A DNA stretch of 64,000 bases from Anaeromyxobacter dehalogenans 2CP-1 (lineage in GTDB: Bacteria; Myxococcota; Myxococcia; Myxococcales; Anaeromyxobacteraceae), in the NCBI RefSeq assembly GCF_000022145.1, contig NC_011891.1, positions 2,120,001 to 2,184,000 of the forward strand. The letters run 5' to 3'. Shown here piece by piece: positions 5,725 to 34,063 of the stretch (its first letter is position 1; each line of letters begins with the position of its first letter). Below the pieces are notes generated by a model, which was not told where the DNA came from, ran no database searches, and was given only the letters and a program-made list of their open reading frames with translations. The position numbers were made by a program, and so were the translations under genes.

Positions 5725-6723
5725 TCAGGGTTCGCCCGGGGTCGAGGCGCGGGAGGCGACCTCCTCGGCGGCGCGGACGTCCCCCGGCGCCCCGAACCGC
5801 CGCGCCAGCGCCACCGCGCGCTGGGCCGCCACCCGGGCGGCGCCGCGGTGCCCGGCCGCGAGCAGCCGCCGGGCCAGCGTGGCGGAGGCGGTGCTCGCCG
5901 CGCGCAGGCTGCCGCTCCGCTCGCCGAGCTGCGCCGCCTTCCGCAGCAGCACGCGCTGCTCCTCCTCGGCGGTGCCGCGCTCCGCGAGCACCTCGGCGAG
6001 CGCGATCTGGGCCCAGGGCACGAACGCGGCCGCGCCGGCCTGCTCGCGCAGCGCGAGCGACTGCCGGAAGCCGAGCTCGGCGCGGGCGAGCTCGCCGCGG
6101 TCCTGGTCCAGCCCGGCCAGGTGGCGCTCCATGTTGGACAGCATGAAGTCGTCGCCGAGCCGCCGGGCGCGCGCCGCGCCGTCCTCGAGCAGCGCGCGGG
6201 CCGCCTCCGGCCGGCCCAGCCGGTCCTCGGCGAGCGCCTGGTGGAAGATCGCCTCGGCCTCCAGGCGCGGGTCGCCGGCGTGCCCCGCGGCGGCGCGCGC
6301 CTCCCGGATCGCGGCGGCGGCCGCGCGCATCCGCGACGGATCCTCGAGCGCCTCGAAGTAGACGCGCCGCGCGTGGACGAGCAGCGCGGTGGCCAGCACG
6401 CGCGGATCGCCGGCCTCGCGCGCGGCGGCGAGCGCCCGGTCGGCGGCGGTCGCGGCCTCCCGCGGCGCGTGGCGGTGGAACTCGCTCCGGTCCACCGCGA
6501 TGCGCGCCAGCAGCACGGCCAGGTCCGCGCGCAGCTTCGCCGGGACCTCGCCGCAGGCGAGCTCGCGCTCCACCGCGGCGCGCGCCGCGTCCCAGCGCCC
6601 CTCGAGCAGGTCCTGCTCGACGCGCGCGGAGAGCTGGGGATCCGGCCCGACCTTCCCGGGCAGCGGGGTGGCGGCGGCGAGGTGGAGGAGGGCGAGGGCG
6701 AGCGCTGGGGCGAACGGGAACAT
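5725..6723 (-). CDS. Exported tetratricopeptide-repeat protein
   Basis: A 332-residue protein with an N-terminal hydrophobic signal (MFPFAPALALALLHLAAATP), so probably periplasmic. The mature part is almost entirely alpha-helical TPR-like repeats, for example RVLATALLVHARRVYFEAL, LEAEAIFHQALAEDRLGRPEAA and WAQIALAEVLAERGTAEEEQ, with the spacing of about 34-40 residues expected of TPRs. The ATG at 6723 was chosen because it starts the signal peptide; the much longer open frame beyond it is antisense to the ABC-F gene. It is transcribed divergently from that gene across 105 bp. No catalytic motif is visible and the binding partner is unknown. Confidence 0.75.
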   Translation of the reverse strand: MFPFAPALALALLHLAAATPLPGKVGPDPQLSARVEQDLLEGRWDAARAAVERELACGEVPAKLRADLAVLLARIAVDRSEFHRHAPREAATAADRALAAAREAGDPRVLATALLVHARRVYFEALEDPSRMRAAAAAIREARAAAGHAGDPRLEAEAIFHQALAEDRLGRPEAARALLEDGAARARRLGDDFMLSNMERHLAGLDQDRGELARAELGFRQSLALREQAGAAAFVPWAQIALAEVLAERGTAEEEQRVLLRKAAQLGERSGSLRAASTASATLARRLLAAGHRGAARVAAQRAVALARRFGAPGDVRAAEEVASRASTPGEP

Positions 6724-6828
6724 CGGGTCGATCTCGGGCGCGGGGGCCGCTCGGGATGGGAGGGGCAGGCGGCCGGCTTGTGACCTCGAGCCGGCCCGCC
6801 GGGACCGCGCCGGTGCTATGAAGGCGCG

Positions 6829-8799
<1,971 letters not shown>

Positions 8800-24706: not shown

Positions 24707-25150
24707 TTACCGGCTGCCAGGGGCCCCCCATGGACCTCGCCCTGCGTCCTGTTGGCCCTCGAGCGAGTCCAGTCGATGCCGTAACGACGACACCGTCCAC
24801 TTCAGTTGCTGGCGCGCGATCAAGAGCCCGACGGATTTCCCGACGCCGATGGCGGCGACCAAGGCGAGCAGGGCGCCGCCACCGGCGAGCAGCGGCCGCT
24901 GGAAGACCAGCTCTCGGTGGTAGGAAGCGAGCACGCCGCCTGTTGCCAACGCAACGACCAGCGCGAGCGCTGCGCTGCCGCAGCCGCACGCGCGGTCGTA
25001 CCGGTTGATGCGCCTCTCCCACCGGTTCCGCTCGGCGAGGGGCATGTCCTCGAAGGCCAGCACCACGCGGCGCGCGTGGCGCCGGGCTCGGCCGAAAAGA
25101 ATGCCCCCGAGCTCGTTCGCCGTGTGCACGGTGAGGACGTCGCGGATCAC
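24707..25150 (-). CDS. Two-helix membrane protein, last gene of accessory operon
   Basis: A 147-residue protein. The N-terminal 60 residues are charged and helical (AFEDMPLAERNRWERRINRYD) with a CGCG pair; two adjacent hydrophobic segments (about residues 58-78 and 86-105) form a hairpin membrane anchor, and a short positively charged tail follows. GTG start at 25150, nine bases after the metzincin gene stop on the same strand. Base composition is lower in GC than in the neighbouring housekeeping genes, as in the rest of the operon. No family recognised. Its place at the end of the operon suggests a membrane component for the module. Confidence 0.65.
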   Translation of the reverse strand: MIRDVLTVHTANELGGILFGRARRHARRVVLAFEDMPLAERNRWERRINRYDRACGCGSAALALVVALATGGVLASYHRELVFQRPLLAGGGALLALVAAIGVGKSVGLLIARQQLKWTVSSLRHRLDSLEGQQDAGRGPWGAPGSR

Positions 25151-25159
25151 GACAGTGCC

Positions 25160-26272
25160 CTAGAAGTACGTCACGTGCTTCGAGGCGCGCCACAGCAGGA
25201 TCTGCCAGGTGCTGAGCCGCGTCATCGTCGGTGGGTCGCTCCCGTCCCAGGGAACGCCCATGAGGTTCGTCGTGTTGCTGGCCGCATCGAGATGCCAGAG
25301 GTTGCCGCTGTGACCCAGCTCGTGCGCCGCGACGCGACGGTTGATCTGCGGACCCTCGCCGCCACACGGCTGGTTGCGGACGGTGATGTAGTCGGTGATC
25401 CACAGCCCACATCCGAAGGAGCCGCAACCGCCGCCGTCGCCCGGGACGGTGCGGATGACGAAGCAGGTGATCGGCGCGCCGTAGCCGACCACACGTCGGA
25501 AGTCGCCAAAGAAGCACTTGGTGGTCGCCATGAAATCGAGCTTCGTCCCGGTCAACCCCAGGTCCGCGCCGAATCCCGACGCGTTGCACGGGACGTCGAG
25601 CGTGTCTGCTTCACTGTTGCCCCCGTCGACCTGCACCCAGTCTTCGCTCACCGTCTCGTCGCCGGCGAGCCCGGAGTCGTACTCGAATGGCGCCAGGCGG
25701 ATGACCCGGATGTTCGCCTCGCGGCGCAGGATCTCGACGGCGTGTTGCAGCAGATTGACGACATAGGGTGTGGCGGCGACCTGGTTTCCGTTCTCATCGC
25801 GGAGGATGATGGTGCAGATGCGCAGCTTCTTCTCCGGCCGGATCCCGATCAGGCCCCAGAGCGCATCCACCAGCGACGCGAGAATCCAGGCGATCGCGGT
25901 GATGAGATTCCACAGCCACTTGATCAGGCGGCCGAGGTAAGGGATCTCGAAGATGAGCTCGACCACGAGAGCGATGGCATCCAGCACCCAGCCGAGGATC
26001 GATTCGAGCGTGACGATGATGGCGTTCACGATCGTCGTCACCACGTCCCAGACCAGGCAGATGGCCGTGGTGATCCAGGTCCACCCGACACAAACCCAGT
26101 TCGAGACCCACACCCAGGCCACGCAAACCCAGGTGATGAGCTTGCATCCCCAGGAGCACGGCCACCAGTCGCAACAATTCTCGTCCCAATCCGAGCAGCT
26201 GCTCTCGCCCTCGTCCTTCCACTCGGAACACTCCTGGTGCCGCTCCTGGCCCCACTCCAGACATCTGGGCAT
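25160..26272 (-). CDS. Metzincin-like protease with N-terminal 11-residue Cys/Trp repeat
   Basis: A 370-residue protein in two parts. Residues 4-80 are a Cys/Trp-rich repeat in which a CxxW-like step recurs every 11 residues (C4, C15, C26, then C39, C50, C61, C72). Residues about 80-150 are very hydrophobic helical segments (LVVELIFEIPYLGRLIKWLW), probably membrane-associating. The C-terminal domain has the zinc motif HELGHSGNLWH (H317, E318, H321, H327) and a Met-turn (TTNLMG, M338) typical of metzincins, although the usual Gly of HxxGxxH is Asn. No signal peptide is evident. The ATG at 26272 is preceded by a gagagg site. It lies in the five-gene operon, 32 bp after the 80-residue gene and 9 bp before the last gene. 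A secreted or membrane peptidase acting on the other module proteins is inferred. Confidence 0.8.
   Translation of the reverse strand: MPRCLEWGQERHQECSEWKDEGESSCSDWDENCCDWWPCSWGCKLITWVCVAWVWVSNWVCVGWTWITTAICLVWDVVTTIVNAIIVTLESILGWVLDAIALVVELIFEIPYLGRLIKWLWNLITAIAWILASLVDALWGLIGIRPEKKLRICTIILRDENGNQVAATPYVVNLLQHAVEILRREANIRVIRLAPFEYDSGLAGDETVSEDWVQVDGGNSEADTLDVPCNASGFGADLGLTGTKLDFMATTKCFFGDFRRVVGYGAPITCFVIRTVPGDGGGCGSFGCGLWITDYITVRNQPCGGEGPQINRRVAAHELGHSGNLWHLDAASNTTNLMGVPWDGSDPPTMTRLSTWQILLWRASKHVTYF
26033..26263 (-). repeat. Coding repeat: hendecad CxxW units
   Basis: Within the metzincin-like gene, residues 4-80 contain CxxW-like steps: CLEW, CSEW, CSDW, (shifted by two) CSWG, CVAW, CVGW and CLVW. 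Cysteines are 11 residues apart within each block, so the DNA repeat unit is 33 bp. The DNA units are diverged, so the repeat is old or constrained at protein level. Confidence 0.75.
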
Positions 26273-27081: not shown

Positions 27082-30000
27082 TCAGTCCTGCGCGTCGGCC
27101 GTGGCGCACTGCGGGATGGTGTTGTTGCCCATGAACAGCGACCCCGCGGGCAGCGACGCCACCTTCCCGTCCTCCACGTGTGTAGCCCCGATGCGCGCGG
27201 GATCCACCTGACCGCCGTGGATCGCCATTCCATCCGAGGCATCCCAGAACGGGTACATGAGGAACGTCTCGTCGCCGCCGTCGCAGGCGCGATCGAAGAA
27301 GGTGCCCGGCCCCTCGCCCGCATCGCAGACGTGGCGCAGGCAGAGGGCGTGACCGATCTCGTGCGCGACGACTTGCTGGAGATCGACGGGGCCGAGCGGC
27401 CCACCTTCATCGCCGATGAACAGCGGTCCTCCGCCGAAGTACGCGTACGCGGTGGCGAACTCGACGTCGCGCGCGAAGAAGAAGTTGAGCGCCCCGAGCA
27501 CGCCCGGTGCCGCGGCGAAGAGCGCCCGGTCGGCCGCCGGGTCGTCGATGGGCCACGTGTTCGCGTGGACGTCGGTGGTCGAGACGTCGGTGACTCCCTG
27601 GACGAGGCGGAAGCTGATCCGAGCTTGCCCCCACGGGGCCGTCACCGAGAACGCGCCCCCCTCGCTGAAGAGGTCTGCGATCTCGGCCGCGGTACGCGTG
27701 GTCCCGCTTCCGGGGCTCGTGCCGACCACCCTGAACGCGGCGACACGCACCACGATCGTGTCGCTGATGCGGATCGCCCGCTCGTCGCGGCTCGTGCCAC
27801 CGTCCGGATTTCGCACGACGATCCGCCGGACGCCACGCAGTGAGCCGAGCGGGGCCGGCGGGATCGTGAGCGTGATCGCCGTGCGGGTCACGCTCGACGT
27901 GGGGAGCAGATAGCTCAGGGCCGGCGCCACCGAGCGATCCTCCGCGAACACCTGGGCACCACCCGCGAAGGCGAGGCCGTTCAGGACCACCGTCTGACCT
28001 TCGATCCAGCGCGGCGGCGAGGGGAGGGCGAGAAGCTTGGGAAGCACTCGCAACATCACCCGGTTGCTGCGGCGATCGGACACGCCGGCTGGTCGGAGGA
28101 CCACGGGGTGGAACCCGCCGTCGGAGTCGTTCGGGACCACGAACGCTGCGGTGGTCGCGCTCGCGACGGGCCCCACGTCCGCGCCGTCGAAGAACACGCG
28201 ATCGATCGACGGATCGAAGTTCTGCCCCGCGATCGACACGGTCTGGCCTGGCTCGGCCTCGTAGACGCTCAGGCTGAGGATGTGCGGACGGTTGAGCTCG
28301 TCGTACCATTGCTGCGGCGTGATCGGGAGGATCTGGATCGCGTCCGGGACGACGCTCGGGCCCGGCGGGCCGAACGCCCCGGGGATCCCAGCGGCGCCGT
28401 CGGCGCCGCGCGCGCCGCGTCGCTCCGGGTGCTCGTCGCACCACGTCTCGCAATCCGCGGTGCCGGCGGCGCCGCCGTTACCACCCAGGCCCGCATTCCC
28501 GGGGTCGCCTCCCGGGCCGCCACCACCGGGGTTCACGTCGATCGACGGCGGCGCCGCGTCGAGCGCGGCGATGCTCTGGTGCGTCGTGAGGAGCGTGAGC
28601 CTCCCGCCGTCGCCTCCCTTCCCTCCGGTGCCGCCGCGTCCCGCATCCCCGCCCAGCCCGCCATCGCCGCCCGACCCGACGCTGCGACAGCAGCCGCCGA
28701 AGAACGTCCCGTCTGCGCGCAGCCCGGTCGCGCCGTCGCCGCCGCGCCCCCCGTCCTGCCCACGTCCCCCGCGCCCGCCATCCTGGCCGCGCAGGTCGAT
28801 CGGCGGCAGCCCGCTCGTCGCGTTCAGCACGTACATCGTCACGATGGGCGCTGGCACGACGGCGTCGGCACCGCCGTTCTTCGTCGGGTGCGGAGCCTGA
28901 TCCCCGTCCTCGCCGTCGCCACCCTGGGCGCCAGGCGACCCACCGCTGGAGCCGGGAGCCGCCGGGCTGGGCCAGAACGCGGCCGCTGGCGGGAGGGGCG
29001 GCGTCTCCCAGGTGATGCGGGTCGCGCCGTCGTATCGGATGGACTCGACGATCACGACCAGCTCGCGGACCTCCTGCCCCACGACGACGTCCTGCCCGCG
29101 GATGTCCCACTCGCCGGCCATGACCACGGCCGTGTCGTGCAGGACGAGGTTCGGCTCGTAGTACAGGACGTTCTGCAGCAGCTCGGCGAAGCGGTACCGC
29201 GGGATCGTCGGGATCGTCCGGGGCGGCTGGACGACGGGCGCGACGTACGCGCCGACGCGGAGCTTCCGGTTCGGGTCGAGCCGGAACGATCCGAGGTCGC
29301 GAACGCTGCAGACGCCCAGCTCGGTCATGAGGGTGCGCGCGCGATCGAGCCACATCTGGATGTTCTGGGGCGCGAGCACCGCGTCGGGCTCGTCGGTCCC
29401 GAGGCCCGGGTTCTGCGCAGCCAGCGCGGTGAGGATGTTCGAGATCCGCTGCTCGACCGTCGGTTGCAGCGCGAGGCCGCCGGGGACGTGCTTCGCGACC
29501 GGTGAGCTCACCTTCACGATGCCGCCGATGGAGTCGCCCGAGGTGTTCGCGAGCGACACCCGGAACGGCCGCTTCGCGGCGACGTCCGCCGCGGAGACGG
29601 CGAGCGCGATCGTGTCCGCCCCTTCCACCTTGCGGCGGATCCGCGCGGACGGTCCGTCGATCCGCAGCTCGGCAGTCTGGCCTGGCTGGAGATCGACGGT
29701 GAACACCAGGTCGCCCGGCAAGGCGGGGAGGAGGCTCCGCGTGAACGTGGCATTGGCGCGAAGCGTGACCTGCGTCTGCACCTCGCCCCGGAGCGCCATC
29801 GCCCCCACGGCGACTCGCGCCGCGAGGACGGACTCGGCGAGCAGGCGCCGGTTGATCGGCGCCTCCCGGTCGCCGCGGAGTGCCAGCATGCGATGCATGA
29901 GCTGCTCGGGCTCGGCGGCGGCGAGGCCATCGATGGAGTCGATCCCGATGCGGGGGAGCACCCGTCCGACGCTGCGGAACTCGTCCCCGAGCGCGATCGT

Positions 30001-30876
30001 CCAGTCGGGCGGCGGATCGGGGTCCAGGTCCCTTCGCGCGACGAGCTGCACGCGGCGCGGCGGGAGGATCTCCCAGACGTCCGTCTCGTCGGTGTCGTAG
30101 CAGCTCCTGGCCTCGCCGTCGTCGAGGTCCCAGTGGATTCGCCCGAACGGTGCTTCGAGCTCCACCAGGCCGCCGTGGATGGGCACCCGCCGGTCGACGA
30201 CGTAGCGGCCGGAGTCCTTGTCGAGCGCGCGCACCCGGACCTCGTCGCCGCGTGCTCCCGCGAGCACCAAGCGCACGGTGCTCGTCCCGTGGAGCGGCCT
30301 GCCGTCGAGGCGCATCGCCACGCGGGCCACGTCGTCGGGGCGCACGGAGATCGTCCGCTCGGCGCGGCCGAGCGCGGCGGAGGCCGCGCGCACGACGTAC
30401 TCGCCCGGCTCCACCCCGTCCAGCCTGAATCGCCGGCTCACCGGATCCTGCGGCACCTCGAGTCGCCGATCGTCTCGCTCCAGCACGACCGCACCGCTCT
30501 TCACCTGCTCCCCGCCGGCGAGCTCGAGCTTCACGTCGATCGCGCCCGCCTGGCCGGAGACGCGGAGGCGCGGGAGCTCCTCGAGCGCGCTGCCGACCTC
30601 GGCGATCCGCTCGGGGGTGAGCTCGGACGCGCGGACGACCGCGCTCGCCGGCACGTAGCCCGGCGGCCGGACGATCACCTCGGCCAGCGTCTCCGCGCGT
30701 GAGTACATGCGCGGACGCGGCAGCGCCGACGGGGTCGGCAACGTGCGAGCCCAGCGCGACAAGCGCGAGGGCGGCGTGTCTCCGCCCTCGGCCCCGCCGC
30801 GCGCTCCGGATTCCCCGGGCTCTCGACGCGTCCCCGTACCGCCGCACCCGCAGTCTCGCGTGCGCTTCTGCGCCAT
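27082..30876 (-). CDS. Large protein: Cys/Gly leader, HhH-like region, collagen-like Gly-rich region, TIG-like domain, metzincin-type zinc site
   Basis: A 1264-residue protein, first gene of the operon. Residues 1-45 are Gly/Cys/Arg-rich (DCGCGGTG) and lack a Sec or Tat pattern. A strand-rich N-terminal half follows, with a helix-hairpin-like segment near 312 (LPRIGIDSIDGL) like DUF4332. Residues 640-840 hold interrupted Gly-rich, collagen-like repeats (GGDGGLGGDAGRGG, GARGADGAAG). An IPT/TIG-like domain (about 862-960) begins HILSLSVYEAEPGQTVSIAG. The C-terminal domain has HEIGHALCLRH (H1172, E1173, H1176, H1182) and a Met-turn TFLMYP (M1207), as in metzincins. A ggggggt ribosome-binding site and a strong hairpin precede the ATG. 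A modular surface or structural peptidase is inferred; no close relative is known to me. Confidence 0.85.
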   Translation of the reverse strand: MAQKRTRDCGCGGTGTRREPGESGARGGAEGGDTPPSRLSRWARTLPTPSALPRPRMYSRAETLAEVIVRPPGYVPASAVVRASELTPERIAEVGSALEELPRLRVSGQAGAIDVKLELAGGEQVKSGAVVLERDDRRLEVPQDPVSRRFRLDGVEPGEYVVRAASAALGRAERTISVRPDDVARVAMRLDGRPLHGTSTVRLVLAGARGDEVRVRALDKDSGRYVVDRRVPIHGGLVELEAPFGRIHWDLDDGEARSCYDTDETDVWEILPPRRVQLVARRDLDPDPPPDWTIALGDEFRSVGRVLPRIGIDSIDGLAAAEPEQLMHRMLALRGDREAPINRRLLAESVLAARVAVGAMALRGEVQTQVTLRANATFTRSLLPALPGDLVFTVDLQPGQTAELRIDGPSARIRRKVEGADTIALAVSAADVAAKRPFRVSLANTSGDSIGGIVKVSSPVAKHVPGGLALQPTVEQRISNILTALAAQNPGLGTDEPDAVLAPQNIQMWLDRARTLMTELGVCSVRDLGSFRLDPNRKLRVGAYVAPVVQPPRTIPTIPRYRFAELLQNVLYYEPNLVLHDTAVVMAGEWDIRGQDVVVGQEVRELVVIVESIRYDGATRITWETPPLPPAAAFWPSPAAPGSSGGSPGAQGGDGEDGDQAPHPTKNGGADAVVPAPIVTMYVLNATSGLPPIDLRGQDGGRGGRGQDGGRGGDGATGLRADGTFFGGCCRSVGSGGDGGLGGDAGRGGTGGKGGDGGRLTLLTTHQSIAALDAAPPSIDVNPGGGGPGGDPGNAGLGGNGGAAGTADCETWCDEHPERRGARGADGAAGIPGAFGPPGPSVVPDAIQILPITPQQWYDELNRPHILSLSVYEAEPGQTVSIAGQNFDPSIDRVFFDGADVGPVASATTAAFVVPNDSDGGFHPVVLRPAGVSDRRSNRVMLRVLPKLLALPSPPRWIEGQTVVLNGLAFAGGAQVFAEDRSVAPALSYLLPTSSVTRTAITLTIPPAPLGSLRGVRRIVVRNPDGGTSRDERAIRISDTIVVRVAAFRVVGTSPGSGTTRTAAEIADLFSEGGAFSVTAPWGQARISFRLVQGVTDVSTTDVHANTWPIDDPAADRALFAAAPGVLGALNFFFARDVEFATAYAYFGGGPLFIGDEGGPLGPVDLQQVVAHEIGHALCLRHVCDAGEGPGTFFDRACDGGDETFLMYPFWDASDGMAIHGGQVDPARIGATHVEDGKVASLPAGSLFMGNNTIPQCATADAQD

Positions 30877-31190: not shown

Positions 31191-31442
31191 ATGGCGTCCG
31201 AAGGTCACGAGCACGAGGGCAGCCACATCGAGATCCGCGAGCGCGAAGGGAAGCCGGAGCTCCGGATCGACGGCAGGCGCGTCGCTCACGGACGGTTGCC
31301 GAACGGGATGTACTTCCTGGACGACTACGCCTTCGACTGGACGGACGACCTGATGGAGCTCGCGCGGCGGTACGTCAGCCACCGGCGCCGGGCGCAGCAG
31401 ATCCGGGCCAGGTCCTCCGCGTCGAAGGAAGGTGCGTCATGA
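31191..31442 (+). CDS. MelC1-like tyrosinase copper caddie
   Basis: An 83-residue protein, His-rich at its start (MASEGHEHEGSHIEIRER), with an ELRIDGRRVAHGRLPNGMYF strand-turn and then the helix LMELARRYVSHR. This pattern of D-G-x-x, a short hydrophobic strand and an L-A-R helix matches MelC1, the Streptomyces caddie that delivers copper to tyrosinase MelC2. Unlike MelC1, it has no Tat signal. The ATG at 31191 has a ggag site; the GTG at 31158 adds a basic leader without features. Its TGA overlaps the ATG of the tyrosinase gene, so the pair is translationally coupled. The family call is by pattern and position rather than by alignment. Confidence 0.6.
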   Translation: MASEGHEHEGSHIEIREREGKPELRIDGRRVAHGRLPNGMYFLDDYAFDWTDDLMELARRYVSHRRRAQQIRARSSASKEGAS

Positions 31443-34063
31443 GGTGCCGCAAGAACTACCGCGACCTGGACGCCGCCGAGCGCGACCGCCTGGTCCAGGC
31501 GCTCCACCACGCGAAGGCGGCAGGCGTCGTCGACCAGTTCGCCAGCGAGCACGAGGCCCACTTCAGCCACGGGATTCACACGAGCTCGCACTTCCTGCCG
31601 TGGCATCGCGAGTTCATCCGGCGCTTCGAGGACGCGCTGCGCACGTATCACCCCCAGGTGACGCTCCCCTATTGGAACTCCGTCGTCGACCGCAGCCCGT
31701 CGGACTCGCTGTGGGACGGTCCGTTCCTCGGCCAGTTCGACTCGGCGTGGAACCTCGATCGGGCGCTGGGATCCGACACGCTGCCCACCGAGGGTCAGCT
31801 GAACACGGCGCTAGGCCGCGGGACGTACGACACGTTCTGGCCCGACCTCGAGGTCAACCTCCACAATGCGCCGCACCGGTGGGTCGCGGGGAAGATGGCG
31901 CAGCGCGACTCACCCCACGACCCGGTGTTCTACCTCCACCACTGCTGGATCGACCTGCTCTGGGCGCAGTGGCAGCTAGGCCATCCCACCGCGCCGTTCG
32001 TCTCGAGCGGAGCCGGGGCGGGGCTCACGGATCCGCTGATGGGGTACACCACCACGCCCGCGGACGTGCTGGACCATCGGACGATCAACGTCTATCGCTA
32101 CCCCCCGGGCTTCGTGCAGGACACGCCGCGCGTCACGCTCGACACGCCCGTCGTCAACTTCATCGAGGTGCCCGCCGGCGAGACGCGGATGGGCGCTGCC
32201 GTGTTCTCCCTCGACGCGTGCGAGACGCTGCACTTCACCGTCGTGAACGGACCCGTCGTGACGGCCGGGCCGCCGGGGACGTTCGGGCTTCCTGGGTCGC
32301 CCGGGCCGGCGGACCCGCACGTCGACGAGAAGGGACGGGTCTGGTTCACGTACACGGCGACCGCTGCCGGCGACGTCTCGGAGGGCGCCGCGACGATCAG
32401 GTGCGACGAGACCGGCGATCAGTTCGCCGTCGCGCTGAGGGCCAACACGATCGCTCGACCGACGGCGGCGATGGTGATGGTGCTCGATCGATCGAACAGC
32501 ATGACGTTCGACTCGGGGGTCGGCGCAGGCGTGACGCGGGCGGACGTCCTGAGGTTCTCTGCGCCCACGGCGGTCGTCGTTCTCGAGGACACGAACGCAA
32601 TGGCGGTGTGCAGCTTCGATCACGACGCGCATCCGGGCATCCCGATGACCGAGGCCGCCGGAGCCGGGAAGCTGACCATCAGCGCGGCCATCCAGAGCTA
32701 CGCGCCGAATCCGAACGGGTGGACCTCGATCGGAGAAGGGGTCGCGCTCGCGCACGGCATCGTCGCCCCCGTGACCGACCACGAGGTCAAGGCGCTGGTC
32801 GTCCTGACCGACGGCGAGGAGAACCACGGTCCGCACGCTCGACGCTACATCCACGACGTGGAGGACCTGATCGCGTCGCTCAACGGGCGCGTGTATGCGA
32901 TCGGCCTCGGCCGCGCCGAGATCCTCAACCCCGTCGCGCTCCAGGCGCTGTGCAGCGGAAACCGCGGCTACCTGCTCATGACGGGCGACCTCACGCCCGA
33001 CGCGACCTACCGGGTGGCGAAGTACTACCAGCAGATCTTCGCCGGCGTGACGAACCACGACATCGTGCTCGATCCTCAGGGATACGTCGGTCCCGGCCCC
33101 GAGGTGCGCATCCCCTTCTGGCTGGCCGACACGGACATCTCGGCGAAGGCGTTCCTCCTGGCGCCCGCGCCCCACGCGATCCGGTTCCGGCTGGAGACGC
33201 CCGACGGCGACATCATCGATCCCGCGGTCGCGAGCGCCCACCCGACGCTCGCGTTCGAGGCGGGGCACCAGGTGGCGCTGTATCGCCTCGGGCTCCCGGT
33301 GCCGCTCGGCGGGAAGAGCGCGCATGCGGGCCGGTGGTACGCACGGCTCGGCGTCGAGAACGCGGGCTACAAGCGGTATCTCTCGTCGCTCGAGGATCGG
33401 TCGGCAGGGCGCGCGACCGCCGCGGCGCACGGCATCCTGTACAACTTCAACGTGCACGCGTACTCCAACCTGAGGATGCGCGCCACGCTGTCCCAGACGA
33501 GCAACGTGCCCGGCGCGAGCCTCGGCGTGCGCGCGGTCCTGACCGAGTACGGCCTGCCCGTGGCCGGGCGCGCCCACTGTCGCGCGGAGCTCACGCGCCC
33601 AGACGGCGCGGCGTCGACGCTGCCGATGCCCGAGGTGCAGCCGGGCGCGTTCGAGACATCGTTCACGGCCCATGCTCACGGGATCTACCCGCTTCGGATC
33701 CTCGCCGAGGGGAGGACCCTGCGCGGGCTGCCCTTCACGCGCGAGCAGCTCCTGACGGGCGCCGTGTGGCGCGGCGGAGACGACGCGCCGACCGTGAAGG
33801 ACGATCCAGACCGCGACCGTGACCGGGTGTGCAGCCTCGTCGCGTGCGTCCTCCGCAGCCGCGGCGTGCTCGGGGTGCTGAGCCAACAGGGGATCGATCC
33901 GGAGGAGCTCCGCCGCTGCCTCGCCGAGTATTGCCGGAAGCCCTCGCCGGGCGAGCCGTCCCACCTCGCCTCGTCGGACGTGGAAGGCAGGCTCCGCGTG
34001 ATCCTGCGCGACGAGAACACGCTGCGCGCAGTGATGGAGATGATCAGGCCTGCGCTGGAGTGA
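31439..34063 (+). CDS. Tyrosinase fused to von Willebrand A domain
   Basis: An 874-residue protein. Residues 1-210 are a type-3 copper tyrosinase: CuA with H47 and H56 in the family FLPWHREF context plus an upstream His (H38, H41 or H44), and CuB with H142, H146 and H168 (HNAPH, YLHHCWIDLLW), with His spacing equal to Streptomyces tyrosinase. A Gly/Pro linker leads to a VWA domain (about 345-545) with a MIDAS motif DRSNS (D350, S352, S354) and VVLTDGEEN. The rest is strand-rich with a C-terminal CRRC-like helical segment. No signal peptide. Tyrosinases oxidise phenols to quinones that can cross-link proteins. The fusion to VWA is unusual to me. It is coupled to the caddie and convergent with thiD. 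Confidence 0.9.
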   Translation: MRCRKNYRDLDAAERDRLVQALHHAKAAGVVDQFASEHEAHFSHGIHTSSHFLPWHREFIRRFEDALRTYHPQVTLPYWNSVVDRSPSDSLWDGPFLGQFDSAWNLDRALGSDTLPTEGQLNTALGRGTYDTFWPDLEVNLHNAPHRWVAGKMAQRDSPHDPVFYLHHCWIDLLWAQWQLGHPTAPFVSSGAGAGLTDPLMGYTTTPADVLDHRTINVYRYPPGFVQDTPRVTLDTPVVNFIEVPAGETRMGAAVFSLDACETLHFTVVNGPVVTAGPPGTFGLPGSPGPADPHVDEKGRVWFTYTATAAGDVSEGAATIRCDETGDQFAVALRANTIARPTAAMVMVLDRSNSMTFDSGVGAGVTRADVLRFSAPTAVVVLEDTNAMAVCSFDHDAHPGIPMTEAAGAGKLTISAAIQSYAPNPNGWTSIGEGVALAHGIVAPVTDHEVKALVVLTDGEENHGPHARRYIHDVEDLIASLNGRVYAIGLGRAEILNPVALQALCSGNRGYLLMTGDLTPDATYRVAKYYQQIFAGVTNHDIVLDPQGYVGPGPEVRIPFWLADTDISAKAFLLAPAPHAIRFRLETPDGDIIDPAVASAHPTLAFEAGHQVALYRLGLPVPLGGKSAHAGRWYARLGVENAGYKRYLSSLEDRSAGRATAAAHGILYNFNVHAYSNLRMRATLSQTSNVPGASLGVRAVLTEYGLPVAGRAHCRAELTRPDGAASTLPMPEVQPGAFETSFTAHAHGIYPLRILAEGRTLRGLPFTREQLLTGAVWRGGDDAPTVKDDPDRDRDRVCSLVACVLRSRGVLGVLSQQGIDPEELRRCLAEYCRKPSPGEPSHLASSDVEGRLRVILRDENTLRAVMEMIRPALE

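Follow-up and report, generated by a model that had tools for sequence, protein, structure and literature searches.

A gene for an enzyme on a stalk and the small partner gene beside it very probably form a mobile two-gene module, present in the window (the whole 64,000-nucleotide stretch of Anaeromyxobacter dehalogenans 2CP-1 that was analysed) and in 12 other loci. Whatever the enzyme, the partner gene was a same-strand neighbour of the stalk gene at all 13 loci, and the enzyme was interchangeable on the stalk, being a metzincin, a GDPD or another zincin. The stalk and its membrane partner suggest an undescribed way to hold or deliver enzymes at a membrane. The two-gene module together with the mechanism proposed below was taken as the best overall explanation, with a probability of roughly 0.4.

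The stalk-metzincin protein of the window begins with MPRCLEWGQERHQECSEWKDEGESSCSDWDENCCDWWPCSWGCK, and no signal peptide was visible by eye at its start. It matched no Pfam or NCBIfam family (E ≤ 1) and no PADLOC family. The first-pass annotation had placed cysteines 11 residues apart at residues 4, 15 and 26 and again at 39, 50, 61 and 72, between positions 26263 (residue 4) and 26033 (residue 80), and these coordinates were correct; the Trp described three residues after nearly all of them was present for six of the seven, but not for Cys39. When every Cys within residues 1-80 was counted (4, 15, 26, 33, 34, 39, 43, 50, 61 and 72), Trp followed at +3 in 8 of 10 cases. Five Cys-Cys pairs stand at lag 11, where 20,000 shuffled versions of this segment averaged 0.98 (p 0.00025), and the eight CxxW motifs (shuffle mean 1.58) were matched by 0 of 20,000 shuffles. 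At the junction the register slipped by 2, with 13 residues from Cys26 to Cys39. When the same genome was searched for a pattern of two CxxW units at a distance of 11, there were 18 matches, four of them in the stalk gene itself, and 12 with the reversed control pattern. By hydropathy, the hydrophobic stretch extended over approximately residues 44-145. Just 5′ of the stalk gene, from 26305 to about 26548 of the window on the minus strand, a short ORF (METTRTARRPRR...) encodes two hydrophobic stretches.

Table 1. Positions of the stalk-metzincin gene, the partner gene and their features in the window.
Feature	Position	Strand	Basis
Stalk-metzincin gene, 370 aa	25160..26272	-	ORF; full-length relatives 34-54% identity
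Charged hendecad block, residues 4-33 (unit starts Cys4, 15, 26)	26174..26263	-	Cys spacing
Junction CCDWWPCSWGC, residues 33-43	26144..26176	-	CC-x-WWPC in 6/9 subfamily-A proteins
Hydrophobic hendecads, residues 50-82 (unit starts Cys50, 61, 72)	26027..26125	-	Cys spacing, unit counts
Second hydrophobic segment, residues 83-145, without Cys ladder	25838..26026	-	Hydropathy; helices in model
Predicted metzincin domain, residues 146-370	25163..25837	-	Model m773e5b51b24f vs adamalysins/ADAMs, Z 13.1, 174 residues, rmsd 3.4
HELGHSGNLWH zinc motif, residues 317-327	25292..25324	-	Sequence motif
Met338, candidate Met-turn (NLMG)	25259..25261	-	Role by analogy
C-terminal tail ASKHVTYF	25163..25186	-	VTY[FLI] ends 7/7 subfamily-A metzincin members
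Partner gene, 147 aa, GTG start, 9 bp past stalk stop	24707..25150	-	Same-strand neighbour in 13/13 loci
Partner Cys-Gly-Cys, residues 55-57	24980..24988	-	Invariant, 13/13 aligned partners
Partner GKSVG, residues 104-108 (G-[KR]-x-x-G)	24827..24841	-	Both Gly 13/13, Lys 12/13

Seven relatives of the stalk protein were returned by a scan of 84,980 species, from a Bacteroidetes MAG, Pseudolabrys, a Desulfobulbaceae MAG, Rudaea, a Rhodospirillales MAG, a Burkholderiales MAG and a Mycobacterium sp. An eighth (L051, genome G814) was added by a stalk-profile search of 398 genomes of one phylum, and these eight and the window protein constitute subfamily A. The first-pass annotation had asked whether homologues keep the spacing of 11 or whether cysteine positions vary freely and the Trp is lacking. 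The register was kept in all eight relatives with differing numbers of units (2-6 charged, 3-6 hydrophobic). Indeed, 11 was the best Cys lag in each of the nine proteins (shuffle p ≤ 0.0024 each), and the spacing was therefore not free; CxxW alone did not reach significance in two of the nine (L038 and L040, p 0.17). The Trp was kept less evenly, occupying the fourth place in 34 of 37 hydrophobic units but in only 12 of 28 charged units and missing from the remaining 16, in a count of 65 units taken from 78 Cys-led rows after exclusion of 13 junction or end rows, where the Cys column is complete by construction. Across the nine proteins the charged unit is C-x-x-[WTS]-x7 with an approximate consensus of CSQT-D-GY--, and the consensus of the hydrophobic unit is CVAWTWVSNVV. 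In L035, AAGGAGG stands directly upstream of the ATG of the stalk gene.

The junction read CHWYSPW in L038 and L040 and was absent from L051. Taken modulo 11, the spacing between the first ladder Cys and the junction was constant in each junction class, as was that between the junction and the last unit; there were three such classes (0/10 in L035, L036, L037 and L041; 7/6 in the window and L039; 8/3 in L038 and L040), in a comparison where the first ladder Cys was picked by hand and Cys7 of L041 and Cys4 of L040 are out of register. L051/L177 had no slip, with 14 Cys strictly 11 apart (3, 14, 25 ... 146) running from charged into hydrophobic units. Because that register is unbroken, the charged and hydrophobic blocks are likely, as judged from the sequences, to be one continuous repeat and not two unrelated ones.

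The stalk gene had no match in 59 near relatives of the host, eight of them of the same genus, and its GC content was 0.64 compared with 0.763 for the window. The stalk proteins of the Bacteroidetes MAG and Pseudolabrys were 72% identical, which would fit transfer between phyla. No match to the window stalk protein or to its N-terminus was found in the plasmid and phage collections, and the plasmid collection likewise had no match to the partners of L036 and L041, the L194 protein or the N-terminus of L041. Three scans of viral_contigs gave no confirmed relative; a CxxW-triple pattern occurred there in at least 120 stretches, as a pattern match alone. A first set of weak matches comprised 20 places outside the window's own, of which L005 and L006 were kept as relatives by layout (a hydrophobic N-terminus, then HELGHYWGLDH). 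L007, L010, L014, L015 and L018 were translated and set aside when this layout was not seen, and the weak matches L050, L052 and L053 were attributed to chance on inspection.

The segment 24707-34063 of the window has a GC content of 0.706 versus 0.759 and 0.761 on either side, and looks like a recently acquired island. It also encodes a HEAT protein, a 1264-aa TIG/metzincin-like protein, an 83-aa protein and a tyrosinase-VWA protein. A tblastn search (E ≤ 1e-3) of the 12 other loci (169,250 bases) found no match to the tyrosinase, 1264-aa metzincin, HEAT or 83-aa genes, and found the window partner in 11 of the 12. The travelling unit is thus two genes, since the partner recurs while the four other island genes do not. 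The first-pass annotation had pointed out that Cys and Trp are both targets of quinones made by a tyrosinase; as the tyrosinase had no match at the other loci, this chemistry was not retained. The 1264-aa protein (27082-30876, minus strand; N-terminus MAQKRTRDCGCGGTG) has a Gly-rich collagen-like stretch, a TIG domain, HEIGHALCLRH and a sub-threshold reprolysin match (E 2.4e-4). The gene for the 83-aa acidic protein (31191-31442, plus strand), possibly a copper chaperone or tyrosinase helper, overlaps that for the tyrosinase-VWA fusion (31439-34063, plus strand) by 4 bases.

The partner lay downstream of the stalk gene in 10 of 13 loci and upstream in three. The two genes were separated by -13 to 29 bp at 12 loci, whereas in L177 they stood 470 bp apart with another ORF in between. 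That extra ORF (about 150 aa, MTNQRPIFDK...), seen only there between the stalk gene (6581-7606) and the partner, could be an enzyme-specific inhibitor or partner. Partners are approximately 118-152 aa long and consist of a soluble N-terminus, Cys-Gly-Cys, a hydrophobic hairpin and G-[KR]-x-x-G. In the structural model (pLDDT 75), a helical hairpin comes after a domain of beta-alpha-beta-alpha topology. The partner is read as a small two-helix protein, probably placed in the membrane. The best Pfam matches fell below cut-off (Phage_holin_3_6, E 0.0077, 16.7 bits vs 28.4; DUF3176, E 0.012), and Foldseek gave no PDB or BFVD match to the model at E ≤ 0.001, which leaves a known fold still possible.

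Eleven of the 13 loci had been found via the stalk or its layout, and the partner was present in all 11; the other two were found via the partner. A partner profile made from eight loci was run over 187, 369, 9, 188 and 183 genomes. Outside the seed genomes it matched G161, G170, G197, G1154 and G1174, each with an adjacent stalk-metzincin gene, and G1154 and G1174 were new loci. The remaining two of the seven matches outside the seed had no stalk gene: that in G179 (E 3.9e-4, inside a 487-aa frame) was judged to be chance, and that in G1132 a frame-broken remnant. At L195 (about 7881-8162, minus strand), in a Bacteroidota genome, lies a frame-broken remnant of a partner gene with no stalk gene adjoining. 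Among seven loci compared, identity was 14-49% for partners versus 34-72% for stalk proteins, and the partner evolves faster than the stalk protein. The two identity matrices were correlated by Pearson r (0.70, Mantel p 0.009) and not significantly by Spearman (0.33, p 0.15).

The C-terminal part of the window protein was predicted, in a model of low confidence, to adopt a metzincin fold. The best match was a venom metzincin, and the 50 entries listed (Z 11.4-13.1) were metzincins by title; in Foldseek against PDB the best matches were adamalysin, ADAM33 and PAPP-A, at E 0.009 and higher. With the metzincins (adamalysin/ADAM, PAPP-A, ulilysin, mirolysin) the window enzyme shares this fold and HExxHxxxxxH with a downstream Met; it differs in its stalk, which that family does not have, in the missing Gly at motif position 8 and in having no Pfam match. 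HExxHxxxxxH was present in all seven subfamily-A metzincin members and all four of subfamily B. The Gly at position 8 was found in one of seven in subfamily A, being missing from six including the window protein, and in four of four in subfamily B; a Met within 45 residues after the zinc motif, recognized by sequence only, was found in six of seven (not L039) and four of four, respectively. The window enzyme is a putative zinc-dependent protease.

Other enzymes were found on the same stalk. L041 carries a GDPD domain (Pfam 8.6e-20), and L177 a different zincin with HEAGHMFGNVD (HExxHxxGxxD type); zinc enzymes were present at 12 of 13 loci. A Paraburkholderia plasmid encodes a relative of the L177 zincin (E 4e-15), and weaker matches were found in large plasmid-borne proteins of Streptomyces that carry EndoU-domain or protein-glutaminase annotations. 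In L201 and L200, a zincin related to that of L177 forms part of Streptomyces plasmid genes of very large size (26 kb and 5.6 kb, the latter unannotated).

Subfamily B (L175, L176, L193 and L194; 578-596 aa) has the partner and a similar layout, with a charged Cys-containing start, a Trp/Cys-rich junction, a hydrophobic region and the metzincin motif. Its start has an apparent 26-residue repeat by eye, and the 11-residue Cys ladder is absent. The ladder thus characterizes subfamily A and is not needed for linkage to the partner, because subfamily B has the partner without it.

Periodicity analysis supported a helical reading of the stalk. The k=3 harmonic (three turns per 11) was the largest of five in the charged (p 0.032) and hydrophobic (p 0.031) blocks, with p values obtained by permuting positions; without the Cys column it remained in the hydrophobic block (p 0.003) and was not significant in the charged block (p 0.12). 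A beta-strand reading of the units was rejected on the low k=5 harmonic in both blocks (0.10, 0.07). AlphaFold2 predicted stalk helices at residues 2-31, 40-108 and 113-141. The structure prediction that had been proposed at the outset thus returned a helical stalk, but with a pLDDT of only about 40-50 over most of its length, so that the helix is predicted and not established. The earlier suggestion of a regular stalk that may enter the membrane agreed with the k=3 harmonic, the low-confidence helical model, the hydrophobic stretch and the linked membrane-protein gene. The apolar face was at 9 degrees (the Cys side) in the charged block and at -137 degrees in the hydrophobic block, where it points away from the Cys/Thr/Asn stripe; this was taken to mean that both blocks pack through one constant face and differ in what covers the outside. 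At about 100 residues, the hydrophobic stretches exceed the length of a single simple membrane helix. The N-terminal charge varies among members (3 basic and 11 acidic residues in the window, 15 and 4 in L193), and therefore does not settle the topology of the stalk.

These observations led to a tentative mechanism of bundling, docking and thiol exchange. The first gene would encode an enzyme carried on a long N-terminal alpha-helical stalk of 11-residue units, charged and then hydrophobic, which is probably helical and oligomeric. The Cys would lie on the same face of every unit, and the helices would pack via this constant stripe; the charged half would thereby bundle in solution, and the hydrophobic half would form that bundle again in the lipid bilayer, with inside and outside reversed. 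The second gene would encode a two-helix membrane protein with Cys-Gly-Cys just ahead of its first membrane helix, which may dock or insert the stalk bundle, its Cys-Gly-Cys pairing or exchanging thiols with the Cys ladder. The enzyme would thereby be held at, or passed through, the membrane. The fullest form of this proposal is doubtful: an undescribed display or delivery system in which a homo-oligomeric stalk continues one unbroken Cys-Trp ladder from water into the membrane, its Cys-lined inside constant and its outer surface changing from charged to greasy, relies for its assembly or gating on thiols exchanged with the partner Cys-Gly-Cys, and can carry different enzymes. No description of a two-gene stalk/partner module was found in the portions of the open-licence literature available.

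Several alternatives were weighed against this mechanism. The least improbable, and still unlikely, is a toxin with its immunity protein, in which the stalk would inject or insert the enzyme into a competitor and the partner would shield the producer. As in polymorphic toxins, one N-terminal module is joined to several unrelated C-terminal enzymes; the patchy distribution, the same-strand gene pair and the matches of the L177 zincin in the large Streptomyces plasmid proteins and the unannotated 5.6-kb gene are also consistent with it. Unlike in polymorphic toxins, however, the small neighbour gene goes with the N-terminal module and not with the enzyme. An immunity-style change of partner with enzyme was not seen, one partner family being found beside metzincin, GDPD and the other zincin; since that family is unchanged whatever the enzyme, the partner cannot be enzyme-specific immunity, though protection against the stalk is possible. 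The lack of any family among PADLOC defence models (2023 library) for eight proteins at E ≤ 1 also argues against a toxin. Next in order, and improbable, is a long amphipathic helix lying on a membrane or lipid body, with the partner as a mere anchor. Apolipoproteins and alpha-synuclein contain such lipid-surface 11-residue repeats and share the helical periodicity of the stalk. In the hydrophobic block, polar positions (h Ser/Thr, a Cys, e Thr, i Thr/Asn) line up as a straight stripe alongside apolar ones, and a surface helix would require no fixed bilayer thickness, in keeping with the variable number of units. The hydrophobic block is nevertheless apolar over most of its surface, the charged block holds the same register, and the membrane gene is linked; moreover, invariant Cys and Trp such as those of the stalk are, to our knowledge, untypical of lipid-surface repeats. 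Ring-like Cys layers that bind copper, zinc or iron-sulfur, and perhaps supply the enzyme with metal, are more improbable again. Invariant Cys on one face, the partner Cys-Gly-Cys and the prevalence of zinc enzymes would suit such a ladder, but the GDPD member retains it, no known metal-binding motif was found and the tyrosinase is not recurrent.

Descent of the stalk from a phage tail tape measure, or imitation of one, with the stalk setting a length or opening a channel, was considered quite remote. Published tape measures have 11-residue Trp/Phe repeats (PMC3271669, PMC5099701), and they resemble the stalk in this aromatic period, in long hydrophobic stretches, which in the stalk are helical by a low-confidence model, and in variable unit number. 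Tape measures accounted for 8 of the 19 PHROGs families matched by any of eight stalk members (best E 5.7e-5), and three of the four phage records matched by the L035 N-terminus were tape-measure genes, weakly (E 0.3-0.4); its weak match in a plasmid record sits in a tail-gene cluster. However, the window stalk itself matched phrog_1922 alone (E 0.53) and none of the tape-measure families, and hydrophobic composition contributes to these weak matches; a match to FtbJ in PDB (E 0.0033) likewise showed strong composition bias. Three tape measures checked had no Cys, were 754-1417 aa long and belong to tail gene clusters, whereas stalk proteins, at 339-596 aa, have an enzyme at their C-terminal end and are paired with the Cys-Gly-Cys partner. 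The neighbours in the window are HEAT, TIG/metzincin and tyrosinase-VWA genes with no tail cluster (other flanks were read by eye). The likeness is one of geometry, not membership. Least probable is a low-complexity hydrophobic leader without specific function, made regular by recent unit duplication. Tandem units that vary in number would be expected of it, but the register is kept down to 34% identity, and register, enzyme swapping and the linked gene persist across phyla, which disfavours such a leader.

The two-gene module with its proposed mechanism gives a testable job to two unannotated gene families, stalk and partner, that lie outside Pfam, NCBIfam and PADLOC. If true, it would be a portable two-gene means to fix or deliver enzymes at bacterial membranes across several phyla, and the stalk would represent a natural design rule by which one repeated unit takes a helix bundle from water to lipid.
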